A DNA stretch of 64,000 bases from Methanobrevibacter sp. (GTDB lineage Archaea > Methanobacteriota > Methanobacteria > Methanobacteriales > Methanobacteriaceae): NCBI RefSeq assembly GCF_017410345.1, contig NZ_JAFQQZ010000045.1, forward strand, positions 1 through 64,000, read 5' to 3'. The translations under genes and the position numbers were made by a program. Positions 11,441 through 16,757 of this stretch are shown here, piece by piece; positions within the stretch are counted from its first letter, which is position 1; every line of letters starts with the position of its first letter. The notes under the pieces are model-generated. The model did not search any database. It saw only the letters and a list, made by a program, of their open reading frames with translations, and was not told where the DNA came from.

Positions 11441-13309
11441 TTATCTAAACAAGTCATTTTCAATGTTTAACTCCTTATAAACATCTTCAATCTCTTTTGT
11501 AACTTTCTTTATCTCTTCGCTAACAAGCTTATGTCTGGACACCAAGTCCTTAGGGTCAATGATTTCCTCTTCCTCATAAGTGTCAACATAACGAGGAATA
11601 TTCAGGTTAAAGTCATTTCTCCTTATCTCTTCCAGGCTGGCCCTATGGGAATAGCCGTCCTTTTCTTCCCTGTAATAATAGGTGCTGACTATCTTATAGA
11701 TGTCCTCTTCCCTTAGATTATTGATAAGCTTGAATTTATTGTAGTCACGAGAAGCGTCAATGAACAATACATCATCATAAAGATTCCTGTTTTTCTTGAA
11801 TATCATCATACATGCAGGATTATTGGTACTATAGAACATGTTTGCAGGAAGGCCGATTACCGCATCAAGATAATTATATCTGTCAACAATGATTCTTCTG
11901 ATTGTTCCTTCAGCGGCAGACCTGAACAGTACTCCATGAGGAACAACTACAATCATTATTCCATCCTCATTCAAATGATAGAGCATATGCTGGATGAATG
12001 CATAATCAGCTTTGGTACGTGGCGGAAGAATGTTGTAATCCTTAAATCTCACATCATCAAGAAAACTCCTATCGGCAGTCCATTTGGAATTGAATGGAAT
12101 CTGACTTACAATGGCATCAAATGTATAATTCAAATGCTGAGGCTGCTCCAGGCTATCTCCCTGCTTGATGTCAAAATCCTTGTAATGGATATTATGCAGG
12201 ATCATGTTCTCCCTTGCAATGTTATAGAATGATGCATTAAGCTCCTGACCGCATATGAAATCACAAGGCAATTCCTTGTTTATCTCTAAAAGCAGGGAAG
12301 CGGAGCCGCAGCAAGGGTCATAGACAGAATCAAGATGTTCCTTCTGTGAAGCTATCAGTTTGGCAATCAAGGTGGAAACCTCTTTTGGAGTATAGTAATC
12401 GAAGGAGCTTGATGAATTCAATGAAAACTCACTCAACAGATATTCAAAGCTGTTTCCAATCAGATTATCAATATATTTTTCATATTCCTCATCATCTAAG
12501 GAATAGCTATCCTCATTTAAGAGAGACTTATTTAAATCATAAGAAAGTTTTTCTTCAGCCAAATCATAAGCCAAGCTTTCATCTTTAAGATTAGTCTTCA
12601 TTTTTTCATCAACCAATGAATCTAAAGATTCAAAATCTGCTTCGATGGCTTTTAGATTTGGTTTAAAACTCATTGCATGAGGTTTTCTTCTTGAATGCAC
12701 CCTCCTTTCGGAACCCATTAATGAAAGATGATTATTCTTATTATATTTCCTATTGTCTAAAATTGATTTGCTTAAAAGGGTATTGTCCCTGCTTTCCTTA
12801 TCCAAATCAAAGTGAACGAACCTTAAAGCATCCAGAATATTGAATACAACCCTATTCTTGTCTTCCATTCTCTTTCCTAATTGGGATGCCCTTAAGTCCA
12901 CACCTTCAAAGAGGTTCTGGAAATCCTCCTGGCTTTCCCTTCCAACAGAAGAATCGCTGATTTCATTGAATGCCTTTTCCAATTCCTCAATTATGATGCT
13001 TCCATAATTCTTTGATGATACAATGTTCTTATACAAAAGGCTAGGACTTAAGAAGTATCCTATATCTTCAATTGACCTTTCCCTTAGGCCTTTCTTATAA
13101 TTCCTATTACTATAAGCTTCCTCAAAGCTGATGTTTTCTCCCTTCAATTCATTATTGATATAGGTCTCCAGCTTTTCAGAGAGATACTTATAGGAAATGA
13201 ATCCTAGGAAATACTTTTGAAACTCATCATCTGTCAGGAATCCGATTCTTTTTTCTCTTTTCAAATCCTCATAGATGGACCATAATTGACGCCCTAAAAC
13301 ATTTTCCAT
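11441..13309 (-). CDS. hsdM: Type I restriction-modification methyltransferase subunit, altered motifs
   Basis: A 622-residue HsdM-type N6-adenine DNA methyltransferase. The N-terminal helical HsdM domain (about 1-170) is followed by a roughly 110-residue polar insertion (about 172-280), then NSFEYLLSEF and YYTPKEVSTLIAKL, which open the catalytic domain. SAM motif I is DPCCGSASLLL (331-341), where the family usually has GSGSLL. Catalytic motif IV is SQIPF (402-406), where NPPF or NPPY is expected; the catalytic Asn position is Gln. The downstream CATALYTIC-domain landmarks (KADYAFIQHMLYHL, VVPHGVLFR, VIGLPANMFYS) are intact. It lies 44 bases after the specificity gene. No restriction subunit is present in the window. 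Confidence 0.88.
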   Translation of the reverse strand: MENVLGRQLWSIYEDLKREKRIGFLTDDEFQKYFLGFISYKYLSEKLETYINNELKGENISFEEAYSNRNYKKGLRERSIEDIGYFLSPSLLYKNIVSSKNYGSIIIEELEKAFNEISDSSVGRESQEDFQNLFEGVDLRASQLGKRMEDKNRVVFNILDALRFVHFDLDKESRDNTLLSKSILDNRKYNKNNHLSLMGSERRVHSRRKPHAMSFKPNLKAIEADFESLDSLVDEKMKTNLKDESLAYDLAEEKLSYDLNKSLLNEDSYSLDDEEYEKYIDNLIGNSFEYLLSEFSLNSSSSFDYYTPKEVSTLIAKLIASQKEHLDSVYDPCCGSASLLLEINKELPCDFICGQELNASFYNIARENMILHNIHYKDFDIKQGDSLEQPQHLNYTFDAIVSQIPFNSKWTADRSFLDDVRFKDYNILPPRTKADYAFIQHMLYHLNEDGIMIVVVPHGVLFRSAAEGTIRRIIVDRYNYLDAVIGLPANMFYSTNNPACMMIFKKNRNLYDDVLFIDASRDYNKFKLINNLREEDIYKIVSTYYYREEKDGYSHRASLEEIRRNDFNLNIPRYVDTYEEEEIIDPKDLVSRHKLVSEEIKKVTKEIEDVYKELNIENDLFR

Positions 13310-13353
13310 ATCATAACCCCTAATTTAAACAATAAAGCATTATTAAAAATTAA

Positions 13354-13914
13354 TTACTCACCTAATTTCTCAAATAGATTCTTCATTATCAGCTTTTCAT
13401 TCTGCCTTTCCAATTCAATCAATTCCTGATTCAAATTAATTCTCTTGTCCATTAACTTGAATAGCCTTCCATATTTAACTTGAGTCTCATAATCAGGTAT
13501 AGGCAGGCAAATTTCCTTAAGGTGAGTGGTCTTAATGATCTTTAAGGTAGTTCCTTCCTCTATCTTATGCAGTTCCCTTGGGAAAATGTCGCTTTTTAGA
13601 AGGTGGTAAACGAAATCAACATCAAATCCTTCCCTAACCCTTACAACCGCATAGTACATAGGTATGATGATTCCTTCCCTTTCAAGCTTGCTTACAGTGG
13701 ATCCTGCAAGCAGAATGACAATATCGTCCTTTCTTGAATAGAACTTACTGTTTATGTCATCTGAAACATCTTCAAAATCAGTGTCTATATTTGAACTGTC
13801 TTCATATGTCTTTTTAAGTACTTCCTGTTTAATTGTATAACCTTTTTGATAACGTTTGATTCTGATTCCAGTGAAAATTTCTGCAACATCATCAAACTTA
13901 TATTTTTTAATCAT
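13354..13914 (-). CDS. hsdS: Type I specificity subunit, half-length (single target-recognition domain)
   Basis: A 186-residue protein with one target-recognition domain, including the typical start YKFDDVAEIFTG and the end segment LKEICLPIPDYETQVKYGRLF, followed by a conserved-helix coiled coil (LNQELIELERQNEKLI). Full HsdS proteins have two such halves at about 400 residues. A half-size subunit would need to dimerise and would then recognise a symmetric bipartite site. AGGTGA precedes the ATG. It is the first gene of the hsdS-hsdM pair, and its upstream side carries the G5-loop hairpin array. Confidence 0.85.
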   Translation of the reverse strand: MIKKYKFDDVAEIFTGIRIKRYQKGYTIKQEVLKKTYEDSSNIDTDFEDVSDDINSKFYSRKDDIVILLAGSTVSKLEREGIIIPMYYAVVRVREGFDVDFVYHLLKSDIFPRELHKIEEGTTLKIIKTTHLKEICLPIPDYETQVKYGRLFKLMDKRINLNQELIELERQNEKLIMKNLFEKLGE

Positions 13915-14072
13915 ACACTCACCTGATTTGACTAAAATAAAACTATAAAATATCTTTCATATAATATTATGTAATAACTTGTTCTTAAACTTAAGTGCAT
14001 AAATTATATGAAAATGGTGGAAAATTAGGAGAAAATAAAGAAAAAAATGGTAGAAAGTAATATGGGAAAAAA

Positions 14073-14270
14073 GATAACACCCCCATTACCTTTTTTTCCA
14101 CGAATAAGAATCACCCCCAATCCTTATCCAAACAAAAGGAATATAATTCACCCCCAAATTACATTCCAATAGACAAAATCATAAGCACTCAATAAGGAAC
14201 TTGAATAAGAATCACCCCCAATTCCTATTCAAAATAAGGAATATAATTCACCCCCGGATTACATTCCTTA
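14073..14270 (-). repeat. Array of five stem-loops with G5 loops (minus strand)
   Basis: Five hairpins: 14073-14090, 14102-14129, 14138-14167, 14201-14232 and 14235-14270. Stems are 6, 10, 11, 12 and 13 pairs. Three central loops are exactly CACCCCCA on the plus strand, so UGGGGGUG in a minus-strand RNA; the other two loops also centre on C5/G5. Internal A-C mismatches of the plus strand become G-U pairs on the minus strand, which favours minus-strand RNA. The second and fourth share one arm sequence and the third and fifth another, so a two-hairpin unit of about 100 bases has been duplicated. The loops resemble a Shine-Dalgarno site. They end 160 bases before hsdS. Confidence 0.75.
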
Positions 14271-14391
14271 ACTTATGAACGAATGCATAAGACTGATTTC
14301 AGATATTTTTCAATTAATCTTTTTTTAATTTTTTAATTTTTTATGTGTGATATCAATTTGGATTAGATCTTATTTTAATCAATCATCAAAT

Positions 14392-14602
14392 TCAGTGCAA
14401 GCAATATGAACAAAACGAATCAAGCAAAAGGTGTTACAGTTAAACAAACGAAGAGGTCGAAATTGCACTGATCACCAGAGATACATTTCTTATGTTCTGA
14501 ATTCCAATGAAACATCCAATGATTGAAAAAAATAAGCAAACTTAATTTTCACTTAAGTTTTTTCTAATCACAATAAGTATTATAAACATACTAGTATATA
14601 AA
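14392..14602 (-). other. Gene-free leader with long-range inverted repeat, hairpin and TATA-like box
   Basis: TCAGTGCAA at 14392-14400 pairs with TTGCACTGA at 14463-14471 across 62 bases that are less AT-rich than the surroundings. A perfect 8-bp hairpin with a 7-base loop lies at 14538-14560. On the minus strand TTTATATAC at 14594-14602 resembles an archaeal TATA box and would place a start near 14570. That would give hsdS a leader of about 650 bases that includes the G5-loop array. Nearer TATA-like sites also exist, so this promoter is only one option. Confidence 0.4.
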
Positions 14603-14787
14603 TGTTTCGTTCTTAAATTTAATGACAGTAATCTAAAATCATATGACATTATAAAATTGATAATAAAAAATATAAAAATAGGTTGAAATAATAGAAAAAA
14701 TAGAAAGAATAGACTAAAAAAGCTAAATAAATTAAATTCAACAAAATCTAAGAAAAATAAAGAGAATAAAATAAAAAATAATTAAAA

Positions 14788-15555
14788 TTAATTAAAATCT
14801 TTATTATAGGCTTCTGTATCTTCCACACCATTGGTATAATGCTTGTTATTGACTGTATCAATAGCTTCATTTGGACCGTTTAGACGGTCAATATGATGAA
14901 CTCCATTTGAATCGTCATATTCCCGGATATAATCTGCATCCTGTCCAGACCAATAATAGCCATCAGGCACATTTCTTGATGAAGATGAATTGGACCTTGT
15001 GCTATCAACTCCAGTATTTGCCACAGCAGAAGTATTTGTAGCATTTGAGCTTTGATTCTCACCATTGAAAGTTTCTGTACTGTTTGTCTCCTCATTGAAG
15101 TATTCATAGCGAGCGGAAGCAATCATATGCTCAAGCATTTCAGGATCCTTACAGATGATTAGAATATTGTCATGGGTGATATGATTTCCAATGAAAGCCA
15201 TATATGTTCCGTTTTCCTCATTATGCCAAACAGTTTGGTTTCCTAAGGTATCCTGAACCGAATTTGCCACAAAATCATTTCGTATATACTCCAATTCAAC
15301 AGCTGCAACCTGATTGCCCTGTTCACTGTTGAAGTACATCACTGTCAGATCATGTTGAGTGTCATTAATGAGATTAATGCCATTGTTAATTACTGTATTT
15401 GTAGATTGATCACTTATTGGCATCTCAATGCTGGAAGTGCTTGTAAGGTCCACTCTTTCATATTTAATAGTTTCATCATATCCCAATAAGAAGAAAGAAG
15501 TGGCTAAAACCACGACAATCACTAGCAATACCAATAATACACGTCTTAAATCCAC
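14788..15555 (-). CDS. Membrane-anchored extracytoplasmic protein of unknown function
   Basis: A 255-residue protein with one N-terminal hydrophobic segment (LLVLLVIVVVLATSFFLLG) after a short basic start, then an outward-facing domain rich in Thr, Asn and Ser with several N-glycosylation sequons. Residues about 35-150 resemble small alpha/beta domains of uncharacterised Methanobacteriales surface proteins. A Ser/Asn-rich linker (about 165-200) and a Tyr/Asp-rich end follow. The start codon is GTG at 15555, supported by GGGAGG four bases before. No family recognised. It sits alone between idsA and the hsd locus. Confidence 0.75.
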   Translation of the reverse strand: MDLRRVLLVLLVIVVVLATSFFLLGYDETIKYERVDLTSTSSIEMPISDQSTNTVINNGINLINDTQHDLTVMYFNSEQGNQVAAVELEYIRNDFVANSVQDTLGNQTVWHNEENGTYMAFIGNHITHDNILIICKDPEMLEHMIASARYEYFNEETNSTETFNGENQSSNATNTSAVANTGVDSTRSNSSSSRNVPDGYYWSGQDADYIREYDDSNGVHHIDRLNGPNEAIDTVNNKHYTNGVEDTEAYNKDFN

Positions 15556-15761
15556 ATAAACCTCCCCATTAACTAATCTTTTAAAAATTAGTTTATTACA
15601 ATTATTAATTTAAATTAAATTATTTATAAACTTAACTTAAGAAATGGGCAAAAATAGGGTAAAAATGGATAATATGAATGAAAAATAGTTAAAATGAAAA
15701 ATAGAAAAAATAGATAAAAATTAATGAAAAATAATAAAAAAAATAAGAAAATACTGAAAAT

Positions 15762-16757
15762 TTAGGAAGATCTGTCTATGACAAAATCTGCCAAATCAAT
15801 AAGCATCTGTTTAGCTTCAGAGTCAGGCAATATTTCGAGTACTTTCTTAGCACCATCAACGTTTTCTAAAGCGAGATTGTGAGCATATTCAATGGAACCA
15901 TATTTATTGAATAAATCAATGGCTTCATGTATGTTCTCTTGTGAAGAATTCTCCTCTTTTAAGATTTCAAGCAATCTTTCATGGTCTTCACCTTCGGATT
16001 CAGCCAATGCCTTAACGACCATAAGGGTCATCTTTCCTTTTGCGATGTCACTGCCGACAGGCTTTCCAAGGTCCTTTTCATCACTGATCACATCAAGATA
16101 ATCATCCTGAATCTGGAAAGCTGTACCAATCATTCTTCCATATTCATAGAGAGCTTGCACTGTCTCATCATCTGCTCCGCCCATGATTGCTCCAGCTTTG
16201 GTTGCAGCTGCAATCAATGCACCTGTTTTCTTGAAGATCATTTCAGAATATTCGTCTTCCTTGACATCAAAGTTTCCTTCAAAGCTCATATCGGAAGCCT
16301 GACCTTCACAGATCTTAACACAGGCATCTGCAACGGTAGCCAATGCATTTGCAACATTTGCAGGATGTGCATTTTCCTCCTTGGAAGCGATTACCATTTC
16401 AAATGCCTTTGAGAATAGGGTATCCCCTGCCAAAATGGCTACAGGCTCATCCCATACCTTATGTACGGAAGGCATTCCCCTTCTCATGTCATCGTCATCC
16501 ATGATATCGTCATGGATAAGTGAAAAGGTATGAATAAGCTCCAAAGCAGCGGCAGTCTTAAGTGCATCCTCCTTTTTTCCTCCAACCGCTTCTGCAGAGA
16601 TTAAAGTGAGTGCTGGCCTAAGCATCTTTCCGCCAGCTTTTGTTAAATAAAGACAAGCATCCTGTAAATCCTGTGGTTCAATAACACTAAGATTCTCTTC
16701 AATTGTTTTTACAACATCTTTGGAATATTGTTTTAAAACATCAGTAACATCAGACAT
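15762..16757 (-). CDS. idsA: Short-chain isoprenyl diphosphate synthase (farnesyl/geranylgeranyl)
   Basis: Condenses isopentenyl diphosphate with allylic primers to make the C15/C20 chains of archaeal ether lipids. The first Asp-rich motif is [12 protein letters not shown] and the second is QDDYLD. The LRPAL and GDTLF landmarks of trans-isoprenyl synthases are also present. Length (331) is typical. GAGGG precedes the ATG. It is the last gene of the minus-strand isoprenoid cluster mvk-ipk-fni-rnj-idsA, matching the order remembered for Methanothermobacter. Confidence 0.96.

Follow-up and report, generated by a model that had tools for sequence, protein, structure and literature searches.

Introduction

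RNAs such as CsrB/CsrC and RsmY/Z display many hairpins with a common G-rich loop motif, a design expected of an RNA that binds numerous copies of a single protein (PMC5027483). In type I restriction-modification (R-M) systems, dimers of half-HsdS subunits have been likened to transcription factors whose sites are split palindromes (PMC6158711). In the class of methyltransferases to which HsdM belongs, motif IV, NPP(Y/F/W), forms the catalytic site (PMC3874165), and AGEF is a motif of the pocket (PMC9613975).

Here we analyzed a locus from Methanobrevibacter sp. in which a hairpin array with G-rich loops precedes an hsdS and an hsdM gene; the window is the whole stretch of DNA analyzed, 64,000 nucleotides (nts) long. 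A putative RNA gene, a half-specificity subunit and a methyltransferase with a dead active site are kept together across a rumen methanogen genus, with purifying selection on both protein genes. This suggests the conversion of an ancient defence enzyme into a system with an RNA partner. Should the link prove physical, it would show how a restriction-modification enzyme can turn into an RNA-controlled binder. The locus is concrete and testable, has a fixed loop motif and bears on livestock methane. In a search of the open-access literature, we found neither this RNA nor a catalytically dead Methanobrevibacter HsdM described, and no known system in which a structured RNA accompanies a type I methyltransferase.

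Results

An array of minus-strand hairpins upstream of hsdS

Sequence inspection and folding identified five consecutive hairpins on the minus strand of the window (14065-14269; Table 1), the 3' end of the array lying about 150 nts upstream of the hsdS start. The folding energy of the array was lower than that of all 200 dinucleotide shuffles on both strands (z of -5.2 for the minus strand and -6.4 for the plus strand), and the word YGGGGGTG occurs five times in the window, each time as an array loop, against 1.0 expected by chance. Both results bear out the five minus-strand hairpins proposed in the initial annotation, which was made from the letters alone. That annotation had counted three loops of exactly the same sequence; the count is four (H2 to H5), H1 carrying a variant. 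It had also stated that every A-C mismatch of the plus strand becomes a G-U pair on the minus strand, and this holds for the inner pairs (3-12), whereas H1 has a closing pair that is C-A on the minus strand. The duplication of a two-hairpin unit, which it had noticed as well, is evident from the 89-90% identity of H1-H2 and H3-H4. Among the five hairpins of the window alone, two-sided changes were found in 10 of 13 stem pairs. Outside the array, TGGGGGTGA occurs once in the 1.84-Mb genome, in the apparent ribosome-binding site (RBS) of a small zinc-ribbon gene.

Table 1. Positions of the array and of the neighbouring features in the window
Feature	Position	Strand	Remarks
Operator-like element upstream of putative ncRNA TATA box	14609..14622	-	TTAAATTTAAGAAC; conserved in relatives
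TATA box, putative ncRNA promoter	14595..14602	-	TTTATATA; in 11/11 intergenic regions
Structured 5' domain, putative ncRNA	14360..14574	-	start ATTGTGATTAG; helices GAUUAG/CUAAUC and CAAUCAUURRA/UUYRAUGRUUG
Hairpin H1	14236..14269	-	loop CGGGGGUG at 14249-14256
Hairpin H2	14200..14233	-	loop UGGGGGUG at 14213-14220
Hairpin H3	14136..14169	-	loop UGGGGGUG at 14149-14156
Hairpin H4	14099..14132	-	loop UGGGGGUG at 14112-14119
Hairpin H5	14065..14098	-	loop UGGGGGUG at 14078-14085
U-rich tract 3' of array, candidate transcript 3' end	14020..14064	-	U-rich in all relatives
Second operator-like element, before hsdS promoter	13981..13994	-	TTAAGTTTAAGAAC; conserved in 11/11 genomes
hsdS, single-TRD (half-S) specificity subunit, 186 aa	13354..13914	-	Type I specificity models; Foldseek to HsdS structures
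hsdM, orphan type I methyltransferase subunit, degenerate catalytic motifs	11441..13309	-	Pfam N6_Mtase 4e-90

The array in related genomes

A DNA search revealed related regions in relatives of the same genus, the majority of which are metagenome assemblies. A covariance model of the hairpins (R2) was then searched against 139 genomes of the family and 152 of the phylum. Arrays were detected in 11 of the 139 family genomes, where the filters were stricter and weak hairpins can be missed, and all 11 are Methanobrevibacter; no array was found in any other of the 152 phylum genomes. Single weak matches outside the genus, in G149 and G124, lie inside or beside unrelated genes and were taken as chance. 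The carriers come from ruminant guts and similar sources, and one is labelled M. olleyae. Each array comprises 3, 5, 6 or 9 hairpins, 64 in total. In G005 (G005:C44; L156:3600-3850) only three hairpins are present, one of which combines a 5' arm and a 3' arm of different types; a deletion within the array or an assembly collapse may account for it.

The loop is nearly invariant, with the consensus N-G4/5-UG(A), while the stems covary. The G-run is 5 nts long in 52 of the 64 loops, 4 in 11 and 7 in one. As loops were collected with the pattern GGGG..TG, the UG that follows the G-run is invariant by construction; the next base, which lies outside this pattern, is A in 57/64. Among 36 distinct hairpins, all 12 stem pairs showed two-sided changes, and the covariation score was 0.69 compared to at most 0.21 in slid controls. 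In well-registered stems we counted 60 G-U pairs and 8 A-C mismatches. A function in double-stranded DNA would not give such an asymmetry, and the strand under selection is thus the one displaying the G-rich loops, that is, the sense strand of hsdS. Compensatory changes, whose absence from related genomes the initial annotation had named as a refutation, are present and, together with the 60:8 ratio, they support the earlier proposal that the array is selected as minus-strand RNA.

A probable larger RNA unit with a putative promoter of its own

From its sequence context, the array probably constitutes the 3' half of a non-coding RNA (ncRNA) of ~0.5-1 kb that has a structured 5' domain and is preceded by its own TATA box. 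The TATA box, the start region ATTGTGATTAG and both helices of the 5' domain precede the array in 11/11 genomes. Helix P3, the longer of the two helices in Table 1, keeps 10-11 of its 11 pairs in every one of them, mostly through G-U exchanges. No reading frame is conserved in this region across the carriers, and the unit spans 508-964 nts between the start-like motif and the 3' boundary of the final hairpin. On the 3' side of the array, the order is U-rich sequence, operator-like element, second promoter-like region and the hsdS RBS, GGTGAG. The operator-like element was found twice in the window at up to one mismatch, compared to 1.6 expected; because this count is not above chance, support for the element comes from its conserved placement at both promoters. 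Given the combination of a second promoter-like region, a U-rich tract and an operator-like element, a leader is less likely than a separate RNA gene with putative transcript ends.

Pairing of the loops with the 5' domain was no better than in shuffles, though a CCTC word is present in 11/11. Comparison with all 4227 Rfam families gave no match at E<=1 in window 13000-16000 and nothing at gathering score in the loci of six relatives, and plasmid records contained no match.

Two observations concern promoters elsewhere. In several Methanobacteriaceae (L078, L080, L082, L085-L088, L257), palindrome-like repeats such as GTCATTA...TAATGAC lie on either side of TATA boxes close to hsd genes, which suggests a common regulator of type I genes. 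In G003 (G003:C9, ~75100-75812; L259:1600-2312), a promoter closely resembling that of the ncRNA lies in front of a vWA-like gene, and a single hairpin with the loop UUAGGGGGUGG / GGGGGUGG is present in the 5' region of this gene (R2 E 0.03). Its likely counterpart in G012 (L262) contains GGGGGTGAT, but clear arms are lacking.

Linkage of the array to hsdS and hsdM

All arrays with upstream sequence available (11/11) lie upstream of a single hsdS orthologue group (70-89% identical), in the same orientation, and the upstream regions of another 18 hsdS homologues, when read, contained no GGGGTG array. In G010, an assembly that is 99% complete, the promoter, the RNA, hsdS and hsdM are jointly absent (approximately window 14665-11048) while the same flanking genes are present. 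A local tree of short genes, with modest to weak support, nests G010 among carriers; a joint loss is therefore likely, though it represents one event. The RNA is preceded by a gene of 255 aa (window 14788-15555) that most carriers share (55-86% identity) and that has no Pfam, NCBIfam or PADLOC match; its homologue upstream of the empty site of G010 is 190 aa long (G010:C9; L138:10501-11073). In the genome of the window and in G008, no further hairpin scored better than E ~6. A general RNA-binding protein with many such mRNA targets is thus not indicated, whereas a dedicated partner is.

A half-specificity subunit and a degenerate methyltransferase

Both proteins are homologous to subunits of type I R-M systems. 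HsdS consists of one target-recognition domain (TRD) and a coiled coil; it falls just below the cut-off of Pfam Methylase_S, and its top structural match with Foldseek is Esub1/paratox. In HsdM, motif IV reads [SC][QE]IPFN in all array-linked orthologues versus ANPPFS in every other HsdM of the family that was checked. The protein of the window has QIPF where NPPF/Y is expected, and alignment to solved structures places QIPF on the NPPY of EcoR124I M and 3lkd. The second pocket motif, AGEF, is also lost in the array-linked orthologues. With both motifs gone, these proteins are not expected to methylate. They contain in addition a variable insert of ~100 residues (residues ~171-272) that is predicted to be disordered and looks unlike known RNA-binding domains; the predicted fold of HsdM has low confidence and was used only for noting this insert.

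The dN/dS values of ~0.04-0.33 for hsdS and ~0.07-0.20 for hsdM are low, which indicates that both genes are selected rather than decaying. No hsdR lies between the flanking genes and no HSDR_N gene adjoins hsdSM; an HSDR_N match is absent altogether in four carriers, some of which are incomplete assemblies. We found no correspondence between this locus and the one HsdM named for M. ruminantium M1 (0134).

Discussion

Our preferred reading, which we hold tentatively and with a little less than even confidence, is that an RNA with many identical sites binds a dedicated partner, most likely the complex of HsdS and the pseudo-HsdM. An ncRNA (~0.5 kb here and up to ~1 kb in relatives) would be transcribed from its own promoter in the direction of hsdS, and its 3-9 hairpins would offer multiple binding sites by displaying the same loop (U-G4/5-UGA) repeatedly. 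The partner would be provided by the next two genes, a half-HsdS dimer together with an HsdM incapable of methylation. In the resulting ribonucleoprotein, the RNA would serve either as a scaffold for many complexes or to titrate them from DNA targets, and a former modification enzyme would have become an RNA-controlled regulator that binds nucleic acids. Membership of HsdS in a DNA-binding family speaks against this partnership, as do the variable, seemingly disordered insert of HsdM, which does not resemble known RNA-binding domains, and the fact that the joint absence represents one event. Of the three proposals made in the initial annotation, a protein-binding RNA array remains the best; the 5' half of the RNA, the second promoter and the dead methyltransferase had escaped that annotation. 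A broader claim, which we regard as possible but doubtful, is that a type I DNA methyltransferase has lost catalysis and now works with an RNA partner, the multi-hairpin RNA loading or titrating many HsdS/HsdM complexes. This would be a ribonucleoprotein regulator or defence switch of a new class in rumen methanogens.

The constant position of the array 5' of hsdS, in the same orientation, and the similar operator-like element at both promoters would also suit a cis-acting leader, in which read-through from the upstream promoter into hsdS lets the hairpins control hsdSM by attenuation, processing or autoregulation via HsdS/HsdM binding. However, a second conserved promoter-like region, with its operator-like element and RBS, lies between the array and hsdS and is preceded by U-rich sequence, and up to nine similar hairpins exceed the needs of a leader switch; we consider a leader rather unlikely. 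The RNA may instead be an independent ncRNA that merely neighbours hsdSM and acts on another factor. Contact between the RNA and HsdS/HsdM is something we infer, and the lone related hairpin (GGGGGUGG loop, E 0.03) in the 5' region of the vWA-like gene of G003 would fit an independent ncRNA, but the linkage in 11/11 genomes, the joint absence in G010 and the lack of other hairpin copies in the genome of the window make it improbable.

The two other roles considered in the initial annotation fared worse. Loops mimicking an extended Shine-Dalgarno core could act as ribosome bait by capturing the 3' ends of 16S: pairing between GGGGGUGA and UCACCUCC is possible, one G-U pair included, and the sole TGGGGGTGA outside the array sits in an apparent RBS. 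Yet the canonical and better-pairing GGAGGUGA occurs in 0/64 loops, GGGGTGA precedes 0/38 ORF starts scanned in the window, and the linkage to a dead methyltransferase is left unexplained, so that bait is hardly credible. A DNA element, with cruciforms or single-stranded hairpins serving recombination, replication or as protein sites, is very unlikely. Hairpins could form in DNA too, and repeat copies and a duplicated unit are present, but the strong asymmetry of G-T over A-C concerns one strand only, and place and orientation are fixed, with an empty site devoid of hairpins; these features and the vertical inheritance of the array also tell against the recombination site that had been proposed. 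The two-loop pattern matched 89 stretches of viral contigs, and R2 detected no hairpin array in the 80 loci examined.

Turning to described systems, the array resembles REP/BIME elements in being a series of imperfect palindromes between genes. Unlike them, it occupies a single locus in its own genome, is selected on a single strand and has a conserved loop, and no RAYT-type transposase was seen alongside. The protein genes are organized as in type I R-M systems with a homodimeric half-HsdS ('Type 1 1/2'), with a one-TRD and coiled-coil hsdS followed by an hsdM of the N6_Mtase family; they differ from these by the loss of catalytic motifs in all orthologues, the lack of a linked HsdR, the disordered insert and the associated RNA. 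In METTL14-type inactive subunits, the methyltransferase fold has been kept by selection after catalysis was lost. The likeness to HsdM is an analogy in the retention of a fold without catalysis; the family is different, and RNA binding here is putative. Compared to CsrB/CsrC and RsmY/Z, the loop carries UGGGGGUGA (G4-7-UG) instead of (A)NGGA and thus does not present GGA, and the locus is archaeal, linked to hsdSM, devoid of Rfam matches and of dispersed target hairpins in the searches made; to our knowledge, CsrA is not known from archaea. What the locus has in common with these sponge RNAs is the design of one RNA with many hairpins, here 3-9, and a repeated G-rich loop motif.
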